A stretch of 32,071 bases of DNA from Acholeplasmatales bacterium (GTDB lineage: Bacteria > Bacillota_I > Bacilli_A > Acholeplasmatales > Acholeplasmataceae): contig JAITXV010000105.1 of assembly GCA_031284605.1 (NCBI GenBank), positions 1-32,071 of the forward strand. The letters run 5' to 3'. This document shows positions 2,433-31,152 of the stretch, one piece after another; position 1 is the first letter of the stretch, and each line of letters starts with the position of its first letter. A model generated the notes under the pieces. It saw only the letters and a list, made by a program, of their open reading frames with translations. It searched no databases and was not told the DNA's origin. Both the position numbers and the translations under genes were made by a program.

Positions 2433-5400
2433 ATGATTACAAAAACCACACAAATAGGAAAGAAGACCCTTATAATATGCTTTACATTTTTGGTATTAGT
2501 TTTTAGCATATCTTTATGCATTAAACTAACATCATCACTATACAAAGCATCAAGCTCTTTATATGCTGATTTTGATAGTACAAGTAATACTTTTGTAATA
2601 GGAACTTCTAAAGTAAAAAGAACAATCCAAATCACACCTCAAGGAAGTTATGTTACTAAAAGTTTAATTGATTTAGAAAATCAAACTGAATATGTTAACA
2701 CTAGTGTTAGTGAAGTAAGCATAGTAGTGAATCAAAACTTATTAAATGGAAAAAATAGTATTTGGAGTTATATATCTCATAATACTAATACTTTAAAACA
2801 AGGTGAATTAGAATTAGTGCTTAATACTTCAAACGGAATAGTAAACGTTTCTAAGCACTACATAATATATCCTGAAACATCAATTATCCAAGAATACACC
2901 GATATAACAAATATTACAGGAAGTACAGCTATTATTAGCTTTCCTTCTTTATATAATTATGAATTTGATATTACAGGTTCTAACAATAGTTTTTATTATA
3001 TGACAGGCAATGGTAATTATACAGGTAGTGGAATGTTAAAAGAAATTGATCTAAATAGTAATTATTCAAGACTTTTTGATTCAATAGATAATCCAGAAGT
3101 AGTACCTCTTGATGGATATGCAGCTAACGGAATAGCTAATAACTTTATGGGAGTTGGTATTTATAATGAATTTTTTGCATATAGAGATAATACCAAAAAA
3201 CAAGGAATATTTATTACTTTTGATTATATAGGAAGATGGAATGCAAATGTAAACTACAGCGCTCATCATTTATCTTTAGATTCTAAAGTATATATGAACA
3301 ATTATCAAAGTCCAAATAATCAAGTATTAACTACTCCATATTCTATGATGGGCTTTTATAAAGGTGATATAGATGATATGGGTAATACCATATTAGAGTA
3401 TAACTATATGTATAAATGGGATTACACAAATGTAGAAAATGTTGGTTTTTTAAAAGTTCCACAGTGGATTACTGGTTATCAAACAGATAATGCATTTAAT
3501 ATATCAGAAATATTAAGGTATACAGGTGCTAATGTGTTACATATCGATGATGATTGGTTTGAGACTAGTGGAGTGTGGGAAAACCATCCTTTTGATGATT
3601 TTTTTGAAATCAATGAACTTGCTAAAAAGAGTGGTAATTATATGACAGTATGGATACCAATATGGATGGTTTGGTTTAAAGATCAAGTTGCTCTAGAACA
3701 TCCTGATTGGATTATACCTGGTGAAGAAGGCGAAAGAGGCGGAAACGCTAGTGGACAATCAAGCGTAGGATACGGAACTCATCTTAATACTGCTTTAGAA
3801 GAAGTATACCAATTTATGATAGATAAACTTAATTATTTTCAAGATACCTGGGGTTCATTTATGTGGAGATATGATGCAGAAGCTGCAGCTGTATCTAAAA
3901 TAAATGGAATTAGTAATTACAATGACATGCTATTTCAAAATAATAATTATTTTCGTTTATTAAAGGAATTTAAAGAGACTAATCCTGAAGCTATGGTATA
4001 TGGTTGTTCTAGTGGAGGTCATGCTCTTACTATAGAATCTAGCCGTTATTCTGATACTCAACAAATAAGTGATGGTGGTATTGGTTATATAAATGGTAGA
4101 TACATTAGTTTATTAGTACCTCCTGATAAACTTACTAGTGGAAATACAGGAGTATCTTATGTGTGGGGTAATACTTTCTCTAGGTGGCAACATGCAAATC
4201 TTTTTATGGCTAGTGAGATAACAGGGTTTATAGCAGATGCACAAATAAGCGCAGAAGACAAAGAAGAAGTTAGATTATCTTTAGAAATGTATCGTTTCTT
4301 ACAAAAAGAAAATACAGTTGGTAAATGGGTAAAAGTTTATAGACCTACTGTTAGTGCTGGTATAGATGAGGAACGTTTTAATCAAAAAATGGATAAAGAT
4401 AATAATAAAGGTTATATTTCTATTTCTAATTATGACCAAAAAGTTGGATCAACTTTTAAAGTATATCCAAAAGGTTTAAAAGATTCTTCATATTACACTA
4501 TTTCTTCTTGGTATAACAGCACTCCAGCTCAAACTAAAACAGGACTTGAATGGAAAAATAGTGGTGTCACTATTTCTTCTATGCAAGTAGGCGAGATGTT
4601 ATTTATTAACTTAGAAAATAGACCAGGCAATGGTTGTGATAATGTTAATCCAACTGCTCCTAGCAATTTAACTGTACAAAGTTCTACTTATTTAAATAGA
4701 ACTGGTGTTGAATTAAATTTTAACTCTGGAAGCGATGAAAACTTTTTATCATATTATCAAATATATAGAAATGGTAAAAAAGTTGATAAACTTAGTACAG
4801 GAACTTTTTATTTTGGATTAAACGGAAATATTTATGATACTTGGGGAGTTTCAAGTGTAGATGGAGATGGTAACGAATCAGAAATAATTTATATTACTTC
4901 TGTAGTACAAAATAATCCTAACGTATATAACTATACTACAGATTTTAATATAGATGGAGTTTCAAGAGGATGGAGTTATTATGAGAGCAGGTATGGTAAT
5001 AAAACTCCACTTGTATGGAATGAAGTGATGAAATGCTATGAAAATAGCATATCAGATGCATCTATGTCAATAGATAGATTCAGATTAGGCAATTCAGATT
5101 TAGTTTTTGAATGGACTTCTAAAAAAGCAGGAATAATCAATATTGTAGGTGAAATATCTAAAGTTAAATCAAAAATAGAAGGAGATGGTGTTGTTTTATC
5201 AATATATCATAATTCTAATATTATATTTGGACCATTTTTAATAAGATCTGATAATATATTAGGTATAACCCATAATTTAACAGAGGAAGTTGGTATTGGA
5301 GATGTAATTTCATTTAAGTTAGAAAAGAATTATAATAATATTAAAGACAATGTAAACTATTCTCCAACTATTTATTATGATACAGTTTTTGATGATGTTC

Positions 5401-8015
5401 ATATAGAAAGTTTAGAATTTGCGGATAAAGGATTAGAAGTAGTAATTACTAAAGATAAAAGCATATCACTACCTGTAAGAATATACCCTTTAGAGACCAA
5501 AGAAACTCTTGTAAGATATGAGATAATAGATGGTAATATACTAGCTTCTATAGATAACGCTGGTTTGCTTACTCCTATAGATAGTGGGTTAGTTACAGTT
5601 AAAGTAATATCAATCTATAATGAATCAATATATGATGTTATAGATGTATTAATATACGATAATATGAATATGTTTGTATCTAACTATGATTTTAATGGTA
5701 TACAAGGATATCGTAATTGGGAATACGGATATTTTAGTAACACCGCTTATACAAATTATGGTCTTATGTCATATGATTTTGAAACATTTACTTGGAGAGG
5801 TAACAACCAATATAATATTATTCAATATAATATAATGCATCCTGCAGTTGGTGGCTATCCTTCTAAAACTTTTATAGCTCCTTATTCTGGTAATATTAAA
5901 ATTACAGGAAATGTAAGAAAAGATAGCACAGGAGTTGGTGGAGATGGTATATTTTACACAATCAAACACAACAATAGTTTTATTATTAATAATGGAATAA
6001 TTGAAGGGTGGGACACTATAGGTAAAAACTTCTCATACAATGTTAGTGTAAATAAAGGCGATAAAATATATTTTATAATTGGTTCAAGAAATGAAAATGG
6101 CTATGATGGAACTAATTTTTCTCCTACTATTGAATATATAACTTCACTTAAAGATAGTGTATTTGTAAATAATATCGATTTAAGATTATCAAATAATCAA
6201 ACATCTGTTATGGTTGGTAGTAGTGTTAATATATATGCAGATGTATATCCTAACAACGCCACTAACAAAGAACTTAGATGGAGTATTAATAAAATAACAG
6301 GTGAAGCTTATTTTGATGAATTAAATAAAAGAATAATACCTATTTTGCCAGGTTTTATAGAAGTATATGTAATGAGTAAAGATGCTGCTACTATTTTAAG
6401 AAGTATGGTAATAGAAATTAAAGGTAAAAACAGTGTATTCGTTGCTAATTCAGTTATTGATTATTCTATATTGCAAGGCTTTAATAACTGGTCTTATTAC
6501 TACGCTGCTAAAGGCACTAACAACTATATTTTAATGAATTTAATATCACAAAACGCTAACAACATAACTTATGCTGGGAATGGTTGGAGTAGAATGTTTA
6601 ATAATGGAATGCACCCTGATGCTTCTTACGATGCAATACGCGCATATACCGCAAACTTTAGTGGAACCATTAGGTTAGTAGGTACGGTGTATAAAGACCC
6701 TTCAGGATTAGGAGGAGACGGAGTGGTAGCTCAAGTTAAACTTAACAATGAAACTGTGTGGAACGCTACTATTAGTGGAAGTGATAATATAGGTAAGTAT
6801 TATGATATAAGTATTGATGTAGTGATAGGTGATAAAATATATTTTGTATTAGGTTCTAATATAAATGAATATATGGATTCTACTATATGGATAACTAATA
6901 TAGAATATACAAGCGTTACTGATTCTGGATATAGTAGTAGTAATGCTGTAGATAATGCAATATTAAGTTTACCAAACGTAGATATACTAACTTATGAAGA
7001 TGTAAATCAAGTTTTAGAAGTATACAATATGTATTTAGAATTATCACAAGACGATAAAAAATATGTATTCTATTACCTAGAATTAGACAATCTAGTAGTA
7101 AAAGCTTCTAGCATACTCTTATCTTATAATAAAGGAAAAGAAATAAGCGATTTAATTGCTATAATACCTCCAATAAATAATATAAAATTAACTGATGAAT
7201 ACTTAATTAATAATATATTAGATGCGTACAATAACTTAACTATAGAACAAAAAGCATATGTAACTAATTATTTGGTACTAGAAAATGCAATTAATCAAAT
7301 AAATGTCTTAAAAGATGTTAAAAAAGCTTCTTCGGTATCTAACTTAATTATGTTATTACCTTACAAAGAAGATTTAGAATTAAGCGATAGTGGTATGGTA
7401 AATTTAGTAACTCAAATGTATGAAAATTTAAGTGCTGCTCAAAAAGAATATATAAGTGCTACAGATTATAATAAGTTAATTGCTTTACAAAACCAAATAT
7501 TATTATTAGAAAAAATAGAAACTGTAAAACCTATTATTAACAGTATCCATAATCTTCCTACAAATATAACCGTTTCTAATGAAGATACCTTAAACAATAT
7601 CTTATCAAAATATAATTTACTTGATAGTGAGCATAAGGCATTAGTGACTAATTATAGTAAACTTGAAGATTCATTTAATAAGTTAGAGTTATATAAATTA
7701 GATATAGTAGTAATTAACAATATAAACAAACTAATTAACGATTTACCTTCAAATATTAGTGTTAAAGACAAAGATAAAGTAAATGAAATAAAAGGTTTAG
7801 TCCAGAATCTAACACCTTCTCAACAAAATCTAAAATATTTACTAAATACTGCTAAACTAAACGCTGCTATTAAAGCTTTAGGAAATACAAGTAATAATTC
7901 TAGTAATAATACAATTAAAGTTGTAATGTATGTAGTTATATTTATAGCTGCTGCTGCAGTTGTAACATTTATAATATATTATTTTAAAAAAATAAAAAAA
8001 CTTGGAAACAAATAA
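2433..8015 (+). CDS. Large secreted, C-terminally membrane-anchored glycoside hydrolase (GH36-like) with Fn3, Ig-like/aromatic beta domains and helical repeats
   Basis: N-terminal hydrophobic signal; VLHIDDDWF, MTVWIPIWMVWF, HPDWIIPG, FMWRYDAEA, VYGCSSGGHALTIESSRYSDTQQISDGG pattern of clan GH-D/GH36-like barrels; C-terminal TM VVMYVVIFIAAAAVVTFIIYYFKKIKK. Confidence 0.7.
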   Translation: MITKTTQIGKKTLIICFTFLVLVFSISLCIKLTSSLYKASSSLYADFDSTSNTFVIGTSKVKRTIQITPQGSYVTKSLIDLENQTEYVNTSVSEVSIVVNQNLLNGKNSIWSYISHNTNTLKQGELELVLNTSNGIVNVSKHYIIYPETSIIQEYTDITNITGSTAIISFPSLYNYEFDITGSNNSFYYMTGNGNYTGSGMLKEIDLNSNYSRLFDSIDNPEVVPLDGYAANGIANNFMGVGIYNEFFAYRDNTKKQGIFITFDYIGRWNANVNYSAHHLSLDSKVYMNNYQSPNNQVLTTPYSMMGFYKGDIDDMGNTILEYNYMYKWDYTNVENVGFLKVPQWITGYQTDNAFNISEILRYTGANVLHIDDDWFETSGVWENHPFDDFFEINELAKKSGNYMTVWIPIWMVWFKDQVALEHPDWIIPGEEGERGGNASGQSSVGYGTHLNTALEEVYQFMIDKLNYFQDTWGSFMWRYDAEAAAVSKINGISNYNDMLFQNNNYFRLLKEFKETNPEAMVYGCSSGGHALTIESSRYSDTQQISDGGIGYINGRYISLLVPPDKLTSGNTGVSYVWGNTFSRWQHANLFMASEITGFIADAQISAEDKEEVRLSLEMYRFLQKENTVGKWVKVYRPTVSAGIDEERFNQKMDKDNNKGYISISNYDQKVGSTFKVYPKGLKDSSYYTISSWYNSTPAQTKTGLEWKNSGVTISSMQVGEMLFINLENRPGNGCDNVNPTAPSNLTVQSSTYLNRTGVELNFNSGSDENFLSYYQIYRNGKKVDKLSTGTFYFGLNGNIYDTWGVSSVDGDGNESEIIYITSVVQNNPNVYNYTTDFNIDGVSRGWSYYESRYGNKTPLVWNEVMKCYENSISDASMSIDRFRLGNSDLVFEWTSKKAGIINIVGEISKVKSKIEGDGVVLSIYHNSNIIFGPFLIRSDNILGITHNLTEEVGIGDVISFKLEKNYNNIKDNVNYSPTIYYDTVFDDVHIESLEFADKGLEVVITKDKSISLPVRIYPLETKETLVRYEIIDGNILASIDNAGLLTPIDSGLVTVKVISIYNESIYDVIDVLIYDNMNMFVSNYDFNGIQGYRNWEYGYFSNTAYTNYGLMSYDFETFTWRGNNQYNIIQYNIMHPAVGGYPSKTFIAPYSGNIKITGNVRKDSTGVGGDGIFYTIKHNNSFIINNGIIEGWDTIGKNFSYNVSVNKGDKIYFIIGSRNENGYDGTNFSPTIEYITSLKDSVFVNNIDLRLSNNQTSVMVGSSVNIYADVYPNNATNKELRWSINKITGEAYFDELNKRIIPILPGFIEVYVMSKDAATILRSMVIEIKGKNSVFVANSVIDYSILQGFNNWSYYYAAKGTNNYILMNLISQNANNITYAGNGWSRMFNNGMHPDASYDAIRAYTANFSGTIRLVGTVYKDPSGLGGDGVVAQVKLNNETVWNATISGSDNIGKYYDISIDVVIGDKIYFVLGSNINEYMDSTIWITNIEYTSVTDSGYSSSNAVDNAILSLPNVDILTYEDVNQVLEVYNMYLELSQDDKKYVFYYLELDNLVVKASSILLSYNKGKEISDLIAIIPPINNIKLTDEYLINNILDAYNNLTIEQKAYVTNYLVLENAINQINVLKDVKKASSVSNLIMLLPYKEDLELSDSGMVNLVTQMYENLSAAQKEYISATDYNKLIALQNQILLLEKIETVKPIINSIHNLPTNITVSNEDTLNNILSKYNLLDSEHKALVTNYSKLEDSFNKLELYKLDIVVINNINKLINDLPSNISVKDKDKVNEIKGLVQNLTPSQQNLKYLLNTAKLNAAIKALGNTSNNSSNNTIKVVMYVVIFIAAAAVVTFIIYYFKKIKKLGNK

Positions 8016-8030
8016 AAAAAGGAGTAAAAA

Positions 8031-11000
8031 ATGAAAACAAGTAAAAACAAGTTATTAAAGTTAGTAAGTATGTTTGTAATGCTTTTAGCATTCGCAGTTG
8101 TATTTTTAGCGCTTAAACCTAGTCATTTAAATGCTGACGATCCGTCTAGTGCTAATTTAAGTTTTGACAGTATGGAACAATTTAGTATGACCCAAGGATA
8201 TGCCAATTGGTATTATGGATACATTCTAAGAGATGATGATGTATTTAATCAATATGGCGAAGAAGAAAGATACGATGGTGTATACGGGAGTGACTGGGGA
8301 ATAATATGGCCAAATAGAATCCATCCAAGTACATCTAGAGATGTAGTTAAACAATTCAAAGTTCCATTTGATGGAGTAGTTAATTTATCTGGATTTTTAG
8401 AGAAAATGTCAGGAGGTGGTTGTGATATAGTTTTTACTATTTATAAAAATGGTATAGAAGAATACACTACTACAATAAATTACGGAGTTCACGAAACTTT
8501 TTTGTTAGAAGATGTCTCTGTAGTACAAAATGATACACTTAATTTTAAATTCCACGGTAGTGGGGGAGGAGATATTTGGTGGAATTCATATGGTGAAACC
8601 CTAAACAATATTATAGTTGATTTCACACAAATAACTGATGAATCTGTTATAAGAAAAATTGAATTTGATTTAGCAGGGTCTGTTGAAGTAGGTAAATTAA
8701 TTGATTTTAGTACTTCTTCTATGAATGTTTATCCTAGTGAATTTTCTTCAAACGTAGGATTTGCTCAAATAAGTGGTGACCAAGTATTTTTAACAGAAGA
8801 AGGTAAATTCATCGCACTTATTACAGGAACTTACCAAATAAATGTTCAAGCGCTTGATTCATTAGGACTTGTAAAAGTTCCTATAGTAGTTACAGAAAGC
8901 ACTAGTGAACACGTATATAATTCAATCCAAGATTTTTCAAGCAATCAAGGAAATAGAGGATGGTATTATTTATATAATGAGGGAGAAGGTTTCTATCCTA
9001 TGGTGTATAATGGTGGTAATTCGTGGTGGAATCATCCAAGCTCTACTTATACTATATCAGATGATAGAATGTTTTGTTTAAATAATGTTTCTCACATCGC
9101 AGCTAAAAAATGGGTAGCACCATTTAGCGGAACAATAGATATATCATCTATAGCAGTAAGAAGTAATTTAAGTGGCTCTACATTTAGATTAGGGGTATAC
9201 CATTATAATAGTGAAAATACTTTAGTAGAAGACCTAACTTATGATCAAGATCATCCTTTATTTACAGATGCATCTTATCCTAAAATATTAAATTATTTAG
9301 AAAGTGTTTCTATTTCTGCAGGAGATTATATATTATTTACTTATGAATATGTAGAAGGAGCTAGTGGAATAACAGGAAGTGATGCTCAAGTAACTCAAAA
9401 TATTGAATATACAGAAGTTACAAGTAGTAATGTACTTATAGAAGAAATAAGCATATTAGGTTCTAGTAGTGTTAGTGTTGGTTCTAGTATTACACTTACA
9501 GCTTCAATATTACCTCTAGACGCAGATATCCAAAGCGTTACTTGGTCAGTTGTTAACACTACAGTATCTTCAGGAACAGGAAACGGGGGATTTGCGTATA
9601 TAGATGAAGGTGGAGTATTAAGTGCTTTTGGTGCTGGAACTGTAACCGTTGTAGCTACAGCAGCTGATTTAAGCGGAGTTATTCAAACTAAAGAAATAAC
9701 TATCACGTCTGTATCTAGTAACAAAAACTTTAGTAATTGGGATGACTATTCTATAATTAACGGTACAAGAAATTGGTTTTACGGATATATTAATCCTTCA
9801 AATTATGATTTTACTTTATCAGAATATTTCCAAGATCAACAAAGATATGATTCAGGAGATTGGGGAATTGTATTTAAAGGCTCTATGCATCCTAGTAGTG
9901 ATATTTCTAATAAACGAGTAGCTCTTTGTTTTAGTGTTCCATTTAATGGTACACTTGATCTTGGATTATTAGTTCAAATATCTGCTTTATCTGCAGGAAT
10001 CCCTGGTGATGGTGTGATAGCTTCATTAGTTTATATTAAAGAAGGAAGTAGCCCTTTAGTACTAACAGATAGTAGTTTTGATTTACTAGCTAATGATTTA
10101 TCACCACACAGTTTTACTACAAGTAGCTTTGAAGTTGAAAAGGGAGATAAATTTTTATATATTTTAAATCCTAGAGGAGCTATTGATGGAGATGAAACTT
10201 TCTTCTTAGGATATTTTAATTATACAGTAGTTAATAGTACAGAAGTTAATGCATTCATTAGTGCCTTAGAAAGTTTACCAGAAGTATTAACTTATCCAGC
10301 TAAAAGCAATGTAGAAAGTGTACAAGCTTTATATAGTGCTTTAACATTATTAGAAAAAGGTTTAGTAGACAGTGAGTATGTAGACATTTTAAATACTGCA
10401 ATACTTACAATGGAAGCTTTAGTTAAAGAACACGACGACAATGCGGCAGCTGACAATGTTATAGTTTTAATTAATCAAATAGGAGTAGTATCATCTTCAA
10501 GCGGAGCATCAATTACTTTAGCTAGAGAAGCTTATAATAATTTAACTGCAGATCAAAAAGCTTTAGTATCTAATTATAGTGTATTAACTCAAGCAGAAAC
10601 TGCTTATATATTAGCAGTAGAAATGGTTATTGTCCAACCTGTTATAGATTTAATTGCATCTTTACCAGAAGTAATAGAACTTAGTGATGAAGAAAGTATT
10701 TTAGCAGCTAGAGAAGCTTACGATAATTTAACAGAAGAAAGACAACTATTAGTTAGTAACTTATCAAAACTAATAGATGCAGAAATTCAATTAGTATTAA
10801 TTAAAGAATATGAAATCATAAGACCTACTATTGAATTAATTGATTCATTACCAGAAGTTATAACTTTAGAAGATGAAGTAACAATATTAAATGCAAGGAA
10901 CGCTTATAATTTACTTACATCTGCTCAAAAGGGAGCTATAAGTAATTATAGTGTATTAGTAGCTGCTGAAGCAACATTAGCTTACTTAAAAGAAATGCTT

Positions 11001-12119
11001 AATGTTACGCCTGTTATTAATTTAATTGATGCACTGCCCGCTATTATTTCGTTAAGTGATGAAAATGCTATAATAAACGCTAGAAATGCTTATAACGCAT
11101 TAAGTACTTATGGTAAATCTCTAGTAACAAATGAAGAAGTTCTAGTAAATGCTGAAAATGCTTTAGTTATAGAAAAACAAAAAGCAGCAGCTAAAATAGT
11201 TGTTGATTTAATAAATTTATTACCAGAAGTTATTACTATAACCGATGAAAACACCATTTTAGAAATAAGATCTGTTTATAACGCATTAAGTGCAGAAGAG
11301 AAAGCTTATGTTACTAATTATAGTGTATTTGAACAAAAAGAAATAGATCTTCAAAATGTAAAAAACGCGATAGCCTTAGCTTTACCTGTAATTACATCAA
11401 TAAGCTTAATAAGCACTGAAGTTACACTTTCTGATAAACAAAACATATTAACTGCAAGAGCTTTATATAATGCGCTTACTGCTTCTGCTAAAGCTTACGT
11501 TACTAATTACAGTGTATTAGTAGCTGCAGAAGCTGCCTTAGCAGGATTAGAATTAGATAAAGAAAAAATAGATCATGTAATAGAAATGATATCTTCTTTG
11601 CCTAGTGTAGCTAGTGTAACCCTTAATTATAAAAATGCTATAGATTTAGTACAATCTTTATTTGATGAATTAACTCAAACTCAAAAAGATGGAGTTACAA
11701 ATATCGCAAAACTTCTAGAATTACAAGCTAAGATAGCAGCTTTAGAACTAGAAAAACAAGAAGCAGATAAAGAGGCTGCTTTAGAGGCCGCTAAAGTGGC
11801 AGCTATTGCCCAGTTAGATAATTATAAAGCTAATTTGAATTACTCAGCATCTAACCTAGAAGATAGAACACTTTATTTAATAAATGCTAAATTAGATATT
11901 AATAACGCTACTTCAGTAGAAGAAATTTCTCAAATAGTTTTAGATACTAAAGCTTTAATTGATAATATAGTAATTGAAACAATTAAAGAGGAAACAGACA
12001 CTCACAAAGACAATAATGTAGTTGAAATTGTTGTTATAATAGTAGTAGTTGTTATATTAGTAGCTGCTGCTATAGTATTAGTAGTAATAGTTATAAAAAA
12101 GAAACATTTAAAAGCATAG
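8031..12119 (+). CDS. Large surface protein: signal peptide, three aromatic beta-type domains, eight helical repeats, C-terminal TM anchor
   Basis: MKTSKNKLLKLVSMFVMLLAFAVVFLALKP signal; repeated 'G..NW.YGY' and 'IxLIxxLPexIxLxDExxIxxARxAYNxLTxxQKxxVxNYSVLxxAExxL' motifs; C-terminal VVEIVVIIVVVVILVAAAIVLVVIVIKKKH. RBS AAAGGAG, 15 bp after the previous stop. Confidence 0.8.
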   Translation: MKTSKNKLLKLVSMFVMLLAFAVVFLALKPSHLNADDPSSANLSFDSMEQFSMTQGYANWYYGYILRDDDVFNQYGEEERYDGVYGSDWGIIWPNRIHPSTSRDVVKQFKVPFDGVVNLSGFLEKMSGGGCDIVFTIYKNGIEEYTTTINYGVHETFLLEDVSVVQNDTLNFKFHGSGGGDIWWNSYGETLNNIIVDFTQITDESVIRKIEFDLAGSVEVGKLIDFSTSSMNVYPSEFSSNVGFAQISGDQVFLTEEGKFIALITGTYQINVQALDSLGLVKVPIVVTESTSEHVYNSIQDFSSNQGNRGWYYLYNEGEGFYPMVYNGGNSWWNHPSSTYTISDDRMFCLNNVSHIAAKKWVAPFSGTIDISSIAVRSNLSGSTFRLGVYHYNSENTLVEDLTYDQDHPLFTDASYPKILNYLESVSISAGDYILFTYEYVEGASGITGSDAQVTQNIEYTEVTSSNVLIEEISILGSSSVSVGSSITLTASILPLDADIQSVTWSVVNTTVSSGTGNGGFAYIDEGGVLSAFGAGTVTVVATAADLSGVIQTKEITITSVSSNKNFSNWDDYSIINGTRNWFYGYINPSNYDFTLSEYFQDQQRYDSGDWGIVFKGSMHPSSDISNKRVALCFSVPFNGTLDLGLLVQISALSAGIPGDGVIASLVYIKEGSSPLVLTDSSFDLLANDLSPHSFTTSSFEVEKGDKFLYILNPRGAIDGDETFFLGYFNYTVVNSTEVNAFISALESLPEVLTYPAKSNVESVQALYSALTLLEKGLVDSEYVDILNTAILTMEALVKEHDDNAAADNVIVLINQIGVVSSSSGASITLAREAYNNLTADQKALVSNYSVLTQAETAYILAVEMVIVQPVIDLIASLPEVIELSDEESILAAREAYDNLTEERQLLVSNLSKLIDAEIQLVLIKEYEIIRPTIELIDSLPEVITLEDEVTILNARNAYNLLTSAQKGAISNYSVLVAAEATLAYLKEMLNVTPVINLIDALPAIISLSDENAIINARNAYNALSTYGKSLVTNEEVLVNAENALVIEKQKAAAKIVVDLINLLPEVITITDENTILEIRSVYNALSAEEKAYVTNYSVFEQKEIDLQNVKNAIALALPVITSISLISTEVTLSDKQNILTARALYNALTASAKAYVTNYSVLVAAEAALAGLELDKEKIDHVIEMISSLPSVASVTLNYKNAIDLVQSLFDELTQTQKDGVTNIAKLLELQAKIAALELEKQEADKEAALEAAKVAAIAQLDNYKANLNYSASNLEDRTLYLINAKLDINNATSVEEISQIVLDTKALIDNIVIETIKEETDTHKDNNVVEIVVIIVVVVILVAAAIVLVVIVIKKKHLKA

Positions 12120-23623: not shown

Positions 23624-24940
23624 TTAATCCGTTTTATTGTCTTCTAAAAATCCAATTAAGAAAATTGGAATGTATAAGATTTTATTATTTTTTTTAATAT
23701 TATGATTACAACATACGTAAGAGGTATTGATATTTTGGTATGTTTTATTTAAATAATCTAATGTGTTATGATTTTGATAATATTTTTCTTGTTTTATTTC
23801 TACAATTGTTATTTGAGTTTTTGTTTTATTTTCATAAACAAACTTAACTTCCCCATGTTTTCTAGAATTATAATAGTATAAAGAATAGTTATTTTGTAAT
23901 AATTGAGTGCATACAAAATTTTCGTATATATAGTTAAAGTTATAATTTTCATCTTCTATTATTATTTTATTTCTAGTTGTTCTTCCTTCTTTACATATTA
24001 ATAATCCTATATCTAGAAAATATAATTTAAACATTTTTCTTTTACTTTTTTTAATACCTTCTATTAATTCATTAGTTAAATTAATTTTATGAGCATATCC
24101 TGCTGTAATTAAGTAATCAATACTTTTTTCGATTTGTTCATAACGAGAGTTAGAAAACTCTTTAATTGAAAAACGGTTATATTCTTTTTTTGCTTGAGTT
24201 GGAATATTAGAAAATAATTTTTGAATATGTAGTTTCTTATCTAAAGTTTCATATTTTTTAAAATCTTTGTTATATAAAGTTAGTATACGTTGTTGTTCTA
24301 AAAATACTTCTTCATAATTTTGAAATTTTATAAATTTTTCTATTACGCTTGGCATACCGCCAACAATTAAGAATTGCTTAAAATATCTCATAAATGATAA
24401 TAATACTGTTTCTGGCAAATCACTCTCATTTTTTAATTTTTCTTTTGTTAAGAAAATGATGTCTTGTGATACATTTGTAGCAAGTAAAAACTCTTCAAAT
24501 GATAAAGGATAAAGGGTGTGAAGTTCTGCTACTTCAACTATAGTATCTTCTATGTTTCTAAATAAAGGTTCTAATAAAGAACCACAAAGTATATATTTAA
24601 AGCTTCCATCTAACACCAGTTCTTTTATATAAGTTATAAGGTTTGGTAGAGCTTGAATTTCATCTATAAATATAACTGTTTGTCCTATTATAAGTTTATT
24701 AGTAAAAATAGTAGAAAATGCTATTAATATATCTAGTGTGTTATTACATTTTTTTAAAGTATCTTTAGCAAATTTATTAGTAAGTAAATTTATATTTACA
24801 TATGAATCAAAATTTTTAGTACAAAACCAATCTATTATATATGTTTTTCCAGTCTGCCTAGGACCTTGTAAGATGAACGCTTTTGTGTTTTGGTTTTCTT
24901 TCCATTGTTCTAATTTTTTGATTATTTTTCTATAAAACAT
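23624..24940 (-). CDS. AAA ATPase with DUF4143-type C-terminal region
   Basis: Walker A LQGPRQTGKTYIIDW, Walker B VIFIDEIQALPNL, YYYNSRKHGEVKFVYENKTKTQITIVEIKQ C-terminal PD-(D/E)XK-like segment. Start moved to ATG 24940 (AGAGGAAA upstream). Confidence 0.8.
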   Translation of the reverse strand: MFYRKIIKKLEQWKENQNTKAFILQGPRQTGKTYIIDWFCTKNFDSYVNINLLTNKFAKDTLKKCNNTLDILIAFSTIFTNKLIIGQTVIFIDEIQALPNLITYIKELVLDGSFKYILCGSLLEPLFRNIEDTIVEVAELHTLYPLSFEEFLLATNVSQDIIFLTKEKLKNESDLPETVLLSFMRYFKQFLIVGGMPSVIEKFIKFQNYEEVFLEQQRILTLYNKDFKKYETLDKKLHIQKLFSNIPTQAKKEYNRFSIKEFSNSRYEQIEKSIDYLITAGYAHKINLTNELIEGIKKSKRKMFKLYFLDIGLLICKEGRTTRNKIIIEDENYNFNYIYENFVCTQLLQNNYSLYYYNSRKHGEVKFVYENKTKTQITIVEIKQEKYYQNHNTLDYLNKTYQNINTSYVCCNHNIKKNNKILYIPIFLIGFLEDNKTD

Positions 24941-25009
24941 AATATTTTCCTCTTCATATATTAAGTATATCATAAATTGCTTAACAAAAAGGAAATAAAA
25001 TATTATATT

Positions 25010-25050
25010 GCACTATGTCGTAAAAATATGATAGTTTTTTCGCACTATGT
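25010..25050. repeat. Pair of GCACTATGT direct repeats in the AAA-ATPase upstream region
   Basis: GCACTATGT at 25010-25018 and 25042-25050, 32 bp apart; a TATAAT on the minus strand lies adjacent to the first. Confidence 0.5.
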
Positions 25051-25137
25051 TTTTAAAAGTTCAACAGAATATTTTTAAAATTATGCAGAAAATAGGCTGT
25101 TTTAGTCTAAAAATAACATTTTAGTATAACAAATAAA

Positions 25138-25167
25138 ATGTAGCGATGTAATATGTAGCGATGTAAT
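25138..25167. repeat. Tandem duplication of a 15-bp unit
   Basis: ATGTAGCGATGTAAT x2, exact. Confidence 0.85.
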
Positions 25168-25320
25168 ATGTTTATAAAATATTATTAATTTTTATACACT
25201 TCTTAATAAAAAGGGATAATATTAAAATATGTGATATAAAACTTTAAAAACGTAAATAACTTTTAGAAGTTACTTGAAAAAGTTATTTTTATCATTTATA
25301 AAGCATAATTGCTTATTTAG

Positions 25321-25329
25321 TGGTACAAT
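25321..25329 (+). promoter_or_regulatory. Candidate extended -10 for the leader ORF/csm operon
   Basis: TGGTACAAT (TGnTAnAAT), followed by AAAAAGGA RBS and ATG at 25360. No good -35 seen. Confidence 0.4.
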
Positions 25330-25359
25330 TATTGTAAGAATAAAAAGGATTAGTAATAT

Positions 25360-25464
25360 ATGAAAAATAGTGAAAGACTAATAATTAAAAACTCAATTTT
25401 CAAAAATACATCAGCTGAACCCGTGAGGGGGGGGGGGTATATTATTTTATCTCTTAAATTCTAA
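25360..25464 (+). CDS. Short ORF (34 aa) containing a poly-G tract upstream of csm6; candidate leader peptide or phase-variable gene
   Basis: RBS AAAAGGA 10 nt before ATG: MKNSERLIIKNSIFKNTSAEPVRGGGYIILSLKF*. Not in the supplied ORF track. One fewer G extends the frame to 25552 (63 aa). Confidence 0.45.
   Translation: MKNSERLIIKNSIFKNTSAEPVRGGGYIILSLKF
25427..25437. repeat. Poly-G tract, G11
   Basis: GTGAGGGGGGGGGGGTAT, 11 consecutive Gs in a strongly AT-rich context. Confidence 0.95.
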
Positions 25465-25489
25465 AACTAAAAATAAAAAATTAATGAAC

Positions 25490-25520
25490 AAAAATTCATC
25501 TTTTTTAGATGAATTTTTTT
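25490..25520 (+). terminator. Intrinsic terminator/attenuator-like hairpin directly upstream of csm6
   Basis: AAAAATTCATC-TTTTTTA-GATGAATTTTT perfect 11-bp stem continuing into a T-run; ends ~25 nt before the csm6 ATG. Confidence 0.7.
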
Positions 25521-25544
25521 ATTTGAAAAGAATCTGGAGGTTAT

Positions 25545-26756
25545 ATGAGTAGCTATATTATTAATATTGTTGGCAATGCTGACCCAGTGTCTTTTGTCAA
25601 TAATGAAATTAAAGATGGTCCCATCTTACATTCAATTAGGTATTATAAGCCTTCTAAAGTATATTTAATTTATTCTGATGTTATGAGAGCTAAAGAAGAT
25701 AATATAAACCTGCATCTTAATTATATGAAACAAGCCTTGACTATTGACTTCGAAGTAATATCAATATATCTAACCAAAGATTCCAAAGTATGGGAATTTG
25801 AAATAGCTAGAGATATTTATGCTATTTTAAACAAGATAGATAATGAGAATGAAAATATTTTTAATAAATATATTCAAATATCTGGTGGAACAGCACAGAT
25901 GGATTCTGCACTGATATTTTGGTCATCATTCCACTTAGATTATAAATTAATAAAAGTTAGCGCTGGAAGTATGAACAATACTAGGACAAACGAATATACT
26001 TTTAATGAACCTAAAGATAACACCGATTATAAAAATGAAATTAATAGAACTTCTATACCTGAGTTGTCTGAAATAAATAAAACACTTTGGTCAACTCAAA
26101 TACTAAAACTTATAGAAAGCGGCAATGTTGAACAAGCCCTCGAAGAAGGCACAAATCTACAAATTATCAATACTGATTGGGAAGAGTATAAAAAGATAAT
26201 TAGATTATATAAAGGGATATTGGGGGCTAAAGACGCAAGAAAAATAGTATCTTTAGAAAATGAACAAATTTTAAATGAAAAAGTATTAAAAATAATATCA
26301 TATGCTAATATAACTTTCTTATATTTTAGTACAAAAAAATATGAAGAATACTATTTAAATGTTAATCCTTTGTTATTTGAACTATTTAGATATCATTTTG
26401 AAAATACAAAAGATAATAGTTTTATTGAAAAAATAAAACTAAATAATAAAAATCAATTGGTATTTAAATCAAATGATAAATATGTATACTTAAATGATTT
26501 ACAGGATTTATTACTTGGTGTAGATGATGATTTATACAATAAATTAGATGAAATAATTAATTTTAGTGAAGTTAGAAATAAAATAGCCCATCAGTTATTC
26601 CCTAAGATTGATGCTCCCACTGAAATATTTAACAAAAAGATAAAATCATTAGTTTTAAAAATTACTTTAGCAAATAAAAAATACTTTGAAATATTACCTT
26701 CTTTGTTAGAGAACTTAAAAAACAAAATAAAGAAACTAGGTGACGAAAATGAATAA
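25545..26756 (+). CDS. csm6: Csm6: CARF-HEPN cyclic-oligoadenylate-activated RNase
   Basis: CARF-like N-terminus with QISGGTAQMDSALIFW; C-terminal HEPN Rx4H (RNKIAH, 26574-26591); RBS CTGGAGG. Confidence 0.85.
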   Translation: MSSYIINIVGNADPVSFVNNEIKDGPILHSIRYYKPSKVYLIYSDVMRAKEDNINLHLNYMKQALTIDFEVISIYLTKDSKVWEFEIARDIYAILNKIDNENENIFNKYIQISGGTAQMDSALIFWSSFHLDYKLIKVSAGSMNNTRTNEYTFNEPKDNTDYKNEINRTSIPELSEINKTLWSTQILKLIESGNVEQALEEGTNLQIINTDWEEYKKIIRLYKGILGAKDARKIVSLENEQILNEKVLKIISYANITFLYFSTKKYEEYYLNVNPLLFELFRYHFENTKDNSFIEKIKLNNKNQLVFKSNDKYVYLNDLQDLLLGVDDDLYNKLDEIINFSEVRNKIAHQLFPKIDAPTEIFNKKIKSLVLKITLANKKYFEILPSLLENLKNKIKKLGDENE

Positions 26757-29160
26757 ATTTAAAAAAGATATAATAATTGGTGCATTGCTGCACGATATAG
26801 GCAAAGTAGTTTATAGAGCAAGAAATTTAAAAGAAATACTATCACACTCAGAAGCTGGATATAGATGGGTTAAAGACAATATTAATTTCAATAATACTGA
26901 AAGTCTTTTTAACAAATATGATATTGAAAATTCAATTCATTATCATCACAGGAATAAGATGCCTGAATATGGTAAAGGATTAAAAATAAATGATAAAGCT
27001 TTCATTGTTTCTTTAGCTGATCATATATCAGCAGGAGCTGATAGAAGATTAGCTGATGAAAAGCATTTAGATGAATTTCATAATTCTCAAACTACTAGGC
27101 CTTTAGAATCAATATTTTCTAGTTTAAATAGAACTGCTAATCAAGTATCTTATTTTTATAATTCTAAAAATTTAGATAGTGATGCTAGTATTAAATATCC
27201 TTCATTAGAAAAAGAAGCAAGTGTAAGTGAAGTTGAATATGAATCATTACTTACTAACCTAAATAGGATATTAAAAGAACCAAAATTGCATGAAGATGAT
27301 AATCATCTTAATTCTCTAATTAATTCAATTAGATACTTGTTGAAATACTGTCCATCTGATACTAGAATAAATATGCAAAGTGATATTTCTTTAGCTGATC
27401 ATTTGATAACAACTGCAGGAATAGCTAGTGTTATCTATGATTATTTCGAATCTAAAAATATTACTAACTATTACCAAAAATGGGATAACGAAAAAGATTT
27501 TTTCAATGAAAAAGCATTTTTATTATTTTCATTTGATTTTTCAGGTATCCAACAATTCATATTTGATATAACTATAAAAAACGCTTTAAAGAATATGAGA
27601 ACTAGAAGTTTTTATTTAGAGATATTAGGAGAATATTTAGCAGACAACATATTAACAGCATTTGAACTAACTAGGGCCAATGTTATTTATATTGGTGGTG
27701 GACACTCATATATTTTATTACCAAATATAACCAATGCTGATTCAATACTAAATGAAGTAATTTCATCTTTTAATAAATTTCTACTTGATTTATTTGATTA
27801 TAAATTATTTGTTGGTTCTGCTTATGTTAGTGTTACAGCTAATGACTTAATGAGTAAAGATATTAGTGCTAATGATTCAGATACATTTAGAAAACAGATG
27901 GATGAATTATTTAAAAAACTTAGTGATTCTAAAAGAAATAAGTACAATGGAAGTGTCTTAAAAGAATTAAATGAAAAAGAATTCATAGTTGGTCAAAGAG
28001 AGTGTACTAGTTGTGGAAAAACCACTAAATTATTAGATAAACAGGACATTTGTGAAACTTGTAATATGTTTATTGAGATGTCAAGTGAGCTAATGAATGA
28101 AAAAAAGGATGTATTTGTAGTTTCTAAAGTTAGGTTTACTAATCTACCATATTTTGTAATGCCTAATGATAATTACTTGTTTTTGTTTACCAAAAATGAA
28201 TATTCTAGTTCAAATATTGATAAATCTACCATAGTTTTTACTTATATAAAAAATGATTTTATTAATACATATAAAAATTCTGCCTCTTTATTTATGTGTG
28301 ATTATGCAGCTAAAGATAGCCACAATAATCAACTATCAATAGAAGATATTATAAAACAAGGGTATATAGATAATGGAAACAAAGGTATAAAAAGAATTGC
28401 AGTAATGAAAGCCGATGTTGATAACTTAGGAGAAACATTTAAAAACGGATTTTCTAATAGTCTATATACTATTAGCAGAATGACATCATTATCTAGTTAT
28501 CTATCTTTATTTTTCAAATATTATATGAAGGATTTGTTGAAAAAATTAAACATTACTGTTATTTATTCGGGTGGTGATGATATATATTTGGTTGGGTATC
28601 TTCCAGATATTAAAATATTTTCAAAAGAATTATACGAAAGTTTTGATAAGTATACTATCTCTAAATTACATTTCAGTGCAGGAATAGGTATATTCAAACA
28701 AACTTATCCAATTTATAAGATATCTGAATATGTAGAACAATTAGAATCTTCTGCTAAATCAGTAGATGGTAAAAACGCAGTATGTATATTTTCTACTAAA
28801 TATAACTTAAAATGGAATGAATTCTTTGACTGTTTAGACAACGAATATAAGTTGTTAGAAAAAGCCATAGACGAAGATTTATTATCAAGTACAATGCTTT
28901 ATAATTCTATTTATAAATTAATGCAAGACCTAGATAGTAAAGATATTGATGTTAAAAAGAAAGTCCCTTATAAGATAGCTTATTTACTAGGAAGAATAAG
29001 GAAAGATAAGTTAAAAGATGGTAATAAAAAAACATTTGAATCATTTAGCCAATTATTATTTGAATGTGGAAATGAAGCAAATACAATGAAGAGAATTAAA
29101 TTATTAGTAGCTATACAATATTATATGTATATCAATAGAGAAGGAGAAAACAATGAGTAG
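26749..29160 (+). CDS. cas10: Cas10/Csm1 with intact HD and GGDD motifs
   Basis: LLHDIGKVVYR (HD), SLADHISAGADRR, zinc-finger CTSCGKTTKLLDKQDICETC, YSGGDDIYLVG (GGDD at 28570-28581). ATG 26749 preferred over GTG 26740. Confidence 0.95.
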   Translation: MNKFKKDIIIGALLHDIGKVVYRARNLKEILSHSEAGYRWVKDNINFNNTESLFNKYDIENSIHYHHRNKMPEYGKGLKINDKAFIVSLADHISAGADRRLADEKHLDEFHNSQTTRPLESIFSSLNRTANQVSYFYNSKNLDSDASIKYPSLEKEASVSEVEYESLLTNLNRILKEPKLHEDDNHLNSLINSIRYLLKYCPSDTRINMQSDISLADHLITTAGIASVIYDYFESKNITNYYQKWDNEKDFFNEKAFLLFSFDFSGIQQFIFDITIKNALKNMRTRSFYLEILGEYLADNILTAFELTRANVIYIGGGHSYILLPNITNADSILNEVISSFNKFLLDLFDYKLFVGSAYVSVTANDLMSKDISANDSDTFRKQMDELFKKLSDSKRNKYNGSVLKELNEKEFIVGQRECTSCGKTTKLLDKQDICETCNMFIEMSSELMNEKKDVFVVSKVRFTNLPYFVMPNDNYLFLFTKNEYSSSNIDKSTIVFTYIKNDFINTYKNSASLFMCDYAAKDSHNNQLSIEDIIKQGYIDNGNKGIKRIAVMKADVDNLGETFKNGFSNSLYTISRMTSLSSYLSLFFKYYMKDLLKKLNITVIYSGGDDIYLVGYLPDIKIFSKELYESFDKYTISKLHFSAGIGIFKQTYPIYKISEYVEQLESSAKSVDGKNAVCIFSTKYNLKWNEFFDCLDNEYKLLEKAIDEDLLSSTMLYNSIYKLMQDLDSKDIDVKKKVPYKIAYLLGRIRKDKLKDGNKKTFESFSQLLFECGNEANTMKRIKLLVAIQYYMYINREGENNE

Positions 29161-29578
29161 AGAAGAATTTAATGTAATGAAAAAAGATTATACACAGTAT
29201 GCGGAGAAAAAGATTAAGGCGTTAAAAGATTTAAATTATAATCCAGCATTTGTGGTACCAACTATTAAAACAAATCAGTTAAGAAATATATATGCACTTA
29301 TTTCACCATTTTTTGAATATTTTAATTATGGTAAGGAACCAAACAAAGAAGAAGCTATAAAAATACTTCAAAAAGCAAAAATAAAAATAGCTTATCAAAT
29401 TGGTCGTGACAACAATACAAGCAAATTAGGAACTAAAAATTTTAATAAAATTACACTTGCATTAGATTTCATTGATGTAGTATTAGCATCAACAACATTT
29501 ATGGAAGATTTAAAAATATATTGCAATTATTTTGAAGCTTTAGTAGCGTATCATAAATTCATAATAGAGGAGAAATAA
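29153..29578 (+). CDS. csm2: Csm2
   Basis: Small protein (141 aa) between cas10 and csm3 with the Csm2-like LRNIYALISPFFEYF...KIAYQIGRDN pattern; overlaps cas10 by ATGAGTAG. Confidence 0.85.
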   Translation: MSREEFNVMKKDYTQYAEKKIKALKDLNYNPAFVVPTIKTNQLRNIYALISPFFEYFNYGKEPNKEEAIKILQKAKIKIAYQIGRDNNTSKLGTKNFNKITLALDFIDVVLASTTFMEDLKIYCNYFEALVAYHKFIIEEK

Positions 29579-29579
29579 A

Positions 29580-30224
29580 ATGAAAAAAATTGAGATTAAG
29601 GGTATTTTATTAGTAAAGACAGGTTTACATATAGGAGGAGATGCTTCTTTTAGTGCAATAGGTAGTATTGATAGTCCAGTTATTAGAAACTCAGGAACAG
29701 GTAAGCCAATGATTCCAGGGAGTAGTTTAAAAGGAAAGATTAGATATTTGTTAGCTAAGAATGCTAGTCAAAAACTAGGCAACCATAAAAATGATCCTAA
29801 AGAAATTTTGAAGTTATTTGGTTCAGATGATTACAGAGCTAGATTATTCTTTTTTGATTTAGATCTATGTGATTCTGACGTTAGTAAGACTTACACTGAA
29901 GGTAAATATGAAAATACAATCGATAGAGATACATGCAAAGCTAATCCTAGACAAATTGAAAGAGTTATACCAAGTACAAGATTTAAGTTTCTTCTTACAT
30001 ATAATGTAGAGGACGAAAAAGAAATAGAACAAGACTTTGAAAAAATTAAAGAAGGATTAAAACTACTTCAAGCTGATTATTTAGGTGGCGGAGGTACTAG
30101 AGGAAATGGTAGAATCCAATTTTTAGAACTAAAAGCCGAAAGTGAAAATAGCAGTTATAAACTAGAATCAATTAATGAAAAGTTAAAAGAAATATGCGAT
30201 TTTGGTGAAAAAGTATATAAATAG
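29580..30224 (+). CDS. csm3: Csm3 (RAMP backbone, target RNase)
   Basis: GLHIGGDASFSAIGSIDSPVIRNSGTGKPMIPGSSLKGKIRYLLA; Asp31 aligns with the catalytic Asp of Csm3; LGGGGTRGNGRIQF. Confidence 0.95.
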   Translation: MKKIEIKGILLVKTGLHIGGDASFSAIGSIDSPVIRNSGTGKPMIPGSSLKGKIRYLLAKNASQKLGNHKNDPKEILKLFGSDDYRARLFFFDLDLCDSDVSKTYTEGKYENTIDRDTCKANPRQIERVIPSTRFKFLLTYNVEDEKEIEQDFEKIKEGLKLLQADYLGGGGTRGNGRIQFLELKAESENSSYKLESINEKLKEICDFGEKVYK

Positions 30225-30225
30225 T

Positions 30226-31152
30226 ATGATTAATATAATAAAATTAAAATTTAAAACTCCAATACATATCGGTAATTTTGGAAAACCTGGGATAGAAAAA
30301 ACAGATGCTTATTTTTGTTCTGACACATTATATAGTGCGTTATTTTATTCATTTCCAGCACATATTGATGAGTTATTAGGATATATTAATAAAAATGAAT
30401 TATTAATAAGCGACGCATTACCATTTGTTGGAAATGAGTTGTTAGTGTTTAAACAGCCATCTTCTTTTGTGTTTGGTAATAGTACAGTAGAAATAGATAG
30501 AAGCATTTTTAAAAAAATGAAAAAATTAACCTATGTTCCATCTAGCAAATATGTTAAGTTATATAAAGGCTGTGATATAAGTGACATTGAAGATTGTCTT
30601 ACACTGTCTAGTAATATAGGTACAGAGGAAATCAGAACATTTAACACAATATCTAGAGTACAATCTAACTCATCTTCTACTACCCCTGTTTCTTTAGCAA
30701 CATTTACATTTGATATTAATTCTGGGTTATATGTTGTTATAAATAGTACTGATAAGGTATTTTCACTTATTTTAAATTTATTTAAAGAACTTGGTCTTAT
30801 TGGAATTGGTGGAAGAAGAAGTGCTGGGTTAGGAAAATTTGATGTTGAAGTATTAGAAAGTATACCAGATTTTTTTAATAATCAAAGCGGTAAAAAAATA
30901 TTATTACTCTCTACTTTTTTACCAACCGATTATAACAAATTAAATAATAATAATTTCAACGTCATAAAAAGAAGTGGTTTTTATCAAAGTTCTATAGACA
31001 ATAATTTATATAAAAAGAAAGATATTTATGCAATTAAAAGTGGGTCAGTTTTTGATAGTGAAATTAAAGGTTCAGTCCTAGATAATTTATCATCTAAAAG
31101 TGAGAAAGTATATAGAGTATTATTACCTCTTTATATAAAGGTGGACTTATAA
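30226..31152 (+). CDS. csm4: Csm4 (RAMP)
   Basis: IIKLKFKTPIHIGNFGKPGIEKTDAYFCSDTLYSALF..., GLIGIGGRRSAGLGKFDVE. ATG 30226 preferred over TTG 30202. Confidence 0.9.
   Translation: MINIIKLKFKTPIHIGNFGKPGIEKTDAYFCSDTLYSALFYSFPAHIDELLGYINKNELLISDALPFVGNELLVFKQPSSFVFGNSTVEIDRSIFKKMKKLTYVPSSKYVKLYKGCDISDIEDCLTLSSNIGTEEIRTFNTISRVQSNSSSTTPVSLATFTFDINSGLYVVINSTDKVFSLILNLFKELGLIGIGGRRSAGLGKFDVEVLESIPDFFNNQSGKKILLLSTFLPTDYNKLNNNNFNVIKRSGFYQSSIDNNLYKKKDIYAIKSGSVFDSEIKGSVLDNLSSKSEKVYRVLLPLYIKVDL

Follow-up and report, generated by a model that had tools for sequence, protein, structure and literature searches.

The window, by which we mean the whole stretch of 32,071 nt that was analysed, carries on its plus strand a run of closely packed cas genes. 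Family matches identified csm6 (25545-26756), the first gene of the operon, which encodes a CARF-HEPN ribonuclease and is preceded by the Shine-Dalgarno (SD) sequence TGGAGG (25535-25540), followed by cas10/csm1 (26749-29160), whose translation contains the HD and GGDD motifs, csm2 (29153-29578), csm3 (29580-30224) and csm4 (30202-31152). An ORF cut by the contig end (31152-32071) occupies the position of csm5. The csm6 product scored 110.6 bits, under the NCBIfam cut-off of 150, and was matched by the PADLOC CARF-HEPN/Csm6 models; its HEPN motif RNKIAH, at residue 344, was intact. Judged by the presence of csm6, cas10, csm2, csm3 and csm4 together, the operon is a type III-A CRISPR-Cas system. 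The csm6 and cas10 genes overlap in ATGAATAA (26749-26756), and cas10 and csm2 in ATGAGTAG (29153-29160). Elsewhere in the window (2433-12119) there were two very large adjoining ORFs of 1860 and 1362 aa, the former without a PADLOC match and the latter without an NCBIfam match.

No close relatives of csm6 or of its leader were found in the genome and viral collections. The 100 nearest genomes lacked csm6, and Cas10 was not found in any of the 87 other genomes of the family that were compared. The AAA ATPase gene neighbouring the csm region was not found in the congeneric genome compared (G001). No tract of at least nine G was found beside cas10 in 14 other loci of the same class with a Cas10 match or in 21 more Cas10 loci spread over many phyla, several of the 35 loci being short contigs; one locus (L162) had a single G9 more than 8 kb away from cas10.

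The csm6 leader and its poly-G tract

The region upstream of csm6 is bounded on the other side by the minus-strand ATPase gene (23624-24973), so that no upstream gene reads into it and a hairpin located there can act solely within the csm leader. Such a hairpin, AAAAATTCATCT-TTTTT-AGATGAATTTTT followed by a T run (25490-25520, plus strand), was found by folding; its arms (25490-25501 and 25507-25518) form a perfect 12-bp stem with a ΔG of -11.0 kcal/mol (z about -4.9 when compared with dinucleotide shuffles). Clear U-tailed hairpins that lie at the ends of genes in the window have values of -10.8 to -22.5; the terminator-like hairpin of the leader, a candidate attenuator, is about as strong as the weaker of them (-10.8 and -13.1). 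A consensus terminator scan demanding three G-C pairs missed this AT-rich hairpin. The leader region had no match in Rfam. Farther upstream, at 25003-25058 and 25134-25171, we observed two direct repeats containing GCACTATG and a 15-bp tandem repeat of 2.5 copies (TAATATGTAGCGATG), which may be regulator sites.

A candidate extended -10 element, TGGTACAAT (25321-25329, plus strand), was read upstream of the leader, placing the expected transcription start near 25336. It was not returned by a consensus promoter scan in which the -35 box was obligatory. Similar elements precede the poly-G leaders of two other genomes described below (TGGTATTAT at L045 and TGGTATTA in G424). Downstream of it lies the SD sequence AAAAAGGA (25342-25349, with AGGA at 25346-25349), separated by AGGA-N10-ATG spacing from a start codon at 25360. 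The leader ORF opened by this ATG begins MKNSERLIIKNSIFKNTSAEPV-RGGG, and includes a tract of 11 G (25427-25437), the longest other G run in the window being G6.

The initial annotation had placed the start, the tract, the stops for each tract length and the hairpin at these coordinates, all of which held on translation and folding. With the assembled 11 G the leader (25360-25464) ends at a TAA (25462-25464) 25 nt short of the hairpin, a closed state; with 12 G the stop ends at 25457, 32 nt short of it. With 10 or 13 G the leader would be open from 25360 to 25552, crossing the hairpin and stopping at a TAG (25550-25552) within tATGAGTAG, at the csm6 start. The resulting 8-nt overlap with csm6 has the same form as the csm6/cas10 and cas10/csm2 joins, as had also been pointed out before. 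No frame extends beyond 25552 or is in frame with csm6, so none fuses the leader to it, and the locus does not show the pattern of in-gene phase variation of the coding type. The count of 11 G was read from one metagenome-type assembly of 132 contigs that is 88% complete.

Shuffled sequences were used as nulls, and these leave coding and regulatory constraints out of account. Shuffling the csm6 leader gave an ORF that has an SD and stays open into the tract in 0.8% of cases. One of the three frames was open as far as csm6 with P 0.07, and past the hairpin with P 0.14. The initial annotation had warned that an open run of 37 codons could be due to chance, which was fair: by itself this run is weak evidence, suggestive and not convincing, and for that part comparative evidence was needed.

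Poly-G leaders in the family and in the class

The genome containing the operon (G000, 1.32 Mb) has three runs of at least eight G, one of which is a G8 inside a gene. The other two are the csm6 tract and a G10 on contig C95; for runs of at least 10 G about 0.017 were expected in this genome and two were found. The sole congeneric genome compared, G001, had no such tract, and G002, from another genus of the same family, had exactly two, G10 and G11. These four, located by following up the csm6 finding, make up the full list of non-genic tracts of at least eight G in G000 and G002 (about 2.5 Mb) and were not selected; each one lies within a short leader ORF. Three of the leaders precede defence operons (csm6, a methyltransferase-like gene and a GIY-YIG/C5-methylase operon) and one a BspA surface protein. 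At all four loci one frame passes an obstacle or overlaps the gene start, and each of the remaining two ends after at most 31 nt; combined over the four, the passage of an obstacle by one frame gave a Fisher P of 0.0014. SD-preceded leaders arose in shuffles with a frequency of 0.008 for csm6, 0.020 for C25 and 0.005 for C95.

On C95 (L006:929-3745) an SD-preceded leader with G10 and a U-tailed hairpin are followed by the gene of a BspA-type leucine-rich lipoprotein of 827 aa. Of its three frames, two close at +13 and +29, and the third (9 G) extends to +192, crossing the hairpin (-12.4) at +95 to +134 and ending short of the gene start. In G002, a G10 leader (L045:5753-8114, contig C18) lies upstream of a gene for a DNA methyltransferase-like protein of 733 aa, with an AbiEi-like gene directly upstream. 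By eye, GAFYTP and NPPY were recognised in this protein as motifs characteristic of DNA methyltransferases; the protein gave a weak PHROG methyltransferase match and none in Pfam, NCBIfam, PADLOC or the PDB. With 11 G the leader ends in ATGA on this gene, whose start sits in a hairpin of -9.2. The second leader of G002 (L046:2629-6814, contig C25, minus strand) starts with GTG, contains G11 and lies just downstream of tRNA genes; it precedes the gene of a GIY-YIG protein (PADLOC PDC-S14), then a C5 methylase and a GHKL ATPase, and with 10 G ends in ATGTTAG on the GIY-YIG gene. No U-tailed hairpin was found at C18 or C25, where the SDs are also weaker, so at these two loci release of the start codon or translational coupling would dominate.

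These loci bear on the possibility that the csm6 tract is a fortuitous G run, or a decaying one, with a luckily open frame and no switching. The open-frame P at csm6 alone (0.07-0.14) speaks for such an accident, as does the fact that no close relatives of csm6 or its leader were found in which conservation could be compared. Long G tracts, however, far exceed expectation, the four non-genic ones are all in leader ORFs, three of the four leaders precede defence operons and the cassette is multi-copy in another family, and we consider chance or decay unlikely.

Codon use ahead of the tract was mildly gene-like in the four leaders (z 1.4 for csm6 and 0.9, 1.9 and 0.9 for the others), and after the tract it was neutral, with no signal of bias at any of the four. 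A functional product of the leader, either a small protein or a cas-associated peptide, that is itself phase-variable would account for the SD and for the weakly coding-like codons before the tract, but the peptide had no family match, the residues after the tract lack a coding signal and the four leader peptides share no obvious likeness beyond Gly-Gly-Gly, which makes a product of this kind highly improbable. Neutral codon use after the tract is expected if the passage of the ribosome, and not the peptide made, is what matters.

The other family with such cassettes was f14. The pattern AGGA-ATG-N40-70-G9 was searched in 397 genomes of the class and a similar one in 196 f14 genomes. Leaders of the same build were found in six f14 genomes (G424, G463, G468, G506, G538 and G555) as multi-copy cassettes consisting of an SD-ATG, a leader of 13-20 codons, G9-13, a strong terminator hairpin and then a gene, which by its N-terminal sequence was mostly of membrane or surface type. 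In these leaders one frame stops close upstream of the hairpin or inside it, and another at least 17 nt short. This relation of frames to hairpin was found in 10 of the 10 loci tested, csm6 and C95 among them, with P about 0.001 in a test that is approximate, since for the f14 loci it takes as the hairpin the strongest U-tailed one in 230 nt. Paralogous leaders whose upstream 50 nt are identical or almost so carry different numbers of G (G11 and G10 in G555, G10 and G11 in G602), an indication that the length of such tracts does change. On this comparison of sequences, the case for a switch is much stronger with the independent loci of the same build than with the open run alone.

The pattern searches also gave many more poly-G loci, some of which, in G554, G592 and G602, were in-gene tracts. 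Among these, L220-L239 (G554 and G602) comprise 5' ends with G9-G11 that number in the dozens, are nearly identical to one another and are fused in one frame to long ORFs; they appear to be large in-gene phase-variable families of f14, the G554 members being type IV pilin-like by eye.

Other poly-G classes in the order

Tracts of at least 10 G were present in 31 of the 161 genomes of the order. Family f3 had many of them between perfect TTGACA and TATAAT boxes. Loci L086, L089, L090, L100, L110, L111 and L113 of this family have G10-12 in that position, apparently a phase variation of the promoter spacer, and genomes of its genus g23 carry many such tracts each. A different set, L079, L083, L087, L091, L104 and L117, shares in several species an orthologous TATCCTCTCTC ... 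TATACT-G10-TAT with exactly 10 G, seemingly invariant, upstream of a gene whose product starts ..LFDLYGTL (HAD-like by eye). Several G runs at contig ends (L081, L088 and L114) were excluded as probable artefacts of assembly or adapters.

Promoter-spacer tracts of the form TTGACA-N-G10..13-TATAAT (L086, L090, L100, L110 and L113) are common in f3, a different family of the order, which raises the question of whether the csm6 tract, too, lies as a spacer within a promoter (CTGAAC-17-TATATT, 25415-25443) and tunes transcription by its length, the leader ORF being irrelevant. One of the sister loci, L045, does have such a match (TTGTGC-19-TATAAT, shuffle P 0.009). When position weight matrices were applied to real and shuffled flanks, however, no -35 and -10 boxes standing out from the shuffles were found around the csm6 tract at 15-20 nt: its match was equalled in 14% of the shuffled flanks (12% for C95 and 34% for C25), whereas the loci of the promoter class scored at or near 0%. 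A spacer would also leave unexplained the SD-preceded ORFs that run into the tract and the hairpin downstream, and we therefore think it quite unlikely at csm6.

Four loci of f2 and f3 (L058, L102, L106 and L112) share a C/T-rich stretch, G10-12, TAA[C/T]TT..., a small hairpin, a terminator and a gene. CCTTGCC occurs in three of the four. No Rfam match was obtained for L102, L106 and L112, and the arrangement may be an RNA-level poly-G attenuator. Loci of this build, one of them (L058) without a usable leader start, lend some plausibility to an RNA-structure switch at csm6 that works without translation, the G run pairing with pyrimidines on its upstream or downstream side and its length shifting the fold of the attenuator. 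At csm6, though, the sole upstream partner seen is the CCC of CCCGTGAGGG, and the whole post-tract region folded no better than shuffles (z -0.88), a value that also gave no support to a larger fold sequestering the csm6 SD. As the SD-preceded ORF would again go unexplained, we regard such a switch as very unlikely.

Proposed switch and comparison with known systems

The elements present in the sequence, namely an SD-preceded ORF, a G tract, frame-dependent stops, a hairpin, an overlap with csm6 and the same build elsewhere, make it fairly probable that the csm6-cas10-csm2-csm3-csm4 operon as a whole is under the control of a phase-variable leader-peptide attenuator. Transcription would begin at a putative promoter upstream of 25360, and ribosomes would translate the short leader ORF, the sole role of which would be to fix the point at which they stop. 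If the tract has 11 or 12 G, the ribosome would leave 25 or 32 nt ahead of the hairpin (25490-25518), which with its U run would then terminate most transcripts before csm6, so that the assembled state would be OFF. Loss of one G by slipped-strand mispairing (10 G, or equally 13) would keep the frame open through the hairpin, and a ribosome within it would block formation of the terminator and allow the operon to be transcribed (ON). This ribosome would end in ATGAGTAG and may additionally re-initiate on csm6.

The initial annotation had proposed that slippage switches the passage of ribosomes through the hairpin together with translational coupling to csm6. The first part is well supported by the anatomy of the leader and the independent loci of the same build and matches the Pil1 precedent described below, and the second may contribute. 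As csm6 carries its own strong SD, the main step is more likely to be relief of termination, with coupling or re-initiation secondary. The effect of the switch on immunity would be that most cells are OFF and a minority ON; that type III-A immunity is phase-variable in this manner, as part of a lineage-wide switching of defence and surface genes by poly-G leaders, is a reading for and against which we judge the chances evenly balanced.

How bacteria weigh the benefit of CRISPR against autoimmunity, RNA damage by Csm6 and blocked uptake of plasmids is an open question. The csm6 leader offers a concrete and testable candidate in which one G would decide CRISPR immunity and, if the proposal is true, this defence could be on in some cells of a population and off in others. 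The authors of a study of the type III system of S. epidermidis explicitly speculated that phase variation could regulate CRISPR immunity (PMC3784566), and beyond this speculation no phase-variable CRISPR-Cas system was found in the literature searched. Our results also suggest that phase variation of the attenuation type is recurrent in small-genome lineages of the class, the literature found being limited to streptococcal pili, and they provide a simple pattern with which to search for such switches (SD-ATG, 10-20 codons, G9-13, terminator, gene).

In design, the proposed csm6 switch would be the mechanism of Pil1 of S. gallolyticus, a proven attenuator with a repeat in a leader-peptide gene, which needs both translation of the leader and the terminator (PMC3894217). 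Short Pil1 leaders stopping 28-49 nt before the terminator give low expression, and high expression goes with longer leaders, which end within the terminator, beyond it or immediately ahead of it (PMC3894217); the 11-G stop of csm6, at 25 nt, is slightly below the 28 nt minimum of the OFF-like isolates. Pil1/Pil3 and the csm6 leader have in common an SD-preceded leader ORF with a simple repeat whose number sets the frame, a terminator hairpin, a target operon downstream, and a short leader for OFF and a longer one for ON. They differ in the repeat unit (a GCAGA pentamer in Pil1, poly-G here), the target (a pilus operon and a CRISPR-Cas operon, respectively) and the terminator (-18.7 and about -11 kcal/mol) and, unlike that of Pil1, the ON leader of csm6 also overlaps the start of the first gene. 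Relative to this precedent, the poly-G form, its spread and the CRISPR operon as target would be new. Poly-G slippage turns ON and OFF the type IIG restriction enzyme cj0031 of Campylobacter jejuni (PMC4889913), which is likewise a phage-defence gene but has its tract in the coding sequence, without a leader ORF or attenuator. As in trp-type attenuators, the position of the ribosome on a leader ORF would decide whether the terminator forms, with the reading frame setting that position in the csm6 leader in place of the amino-acid supply. The operon itself is like other type III-A Csm operons in having csm6, cas10, csm2, csm3, csm4 and an ORF in the position of csm5, with their catalytic motifs.
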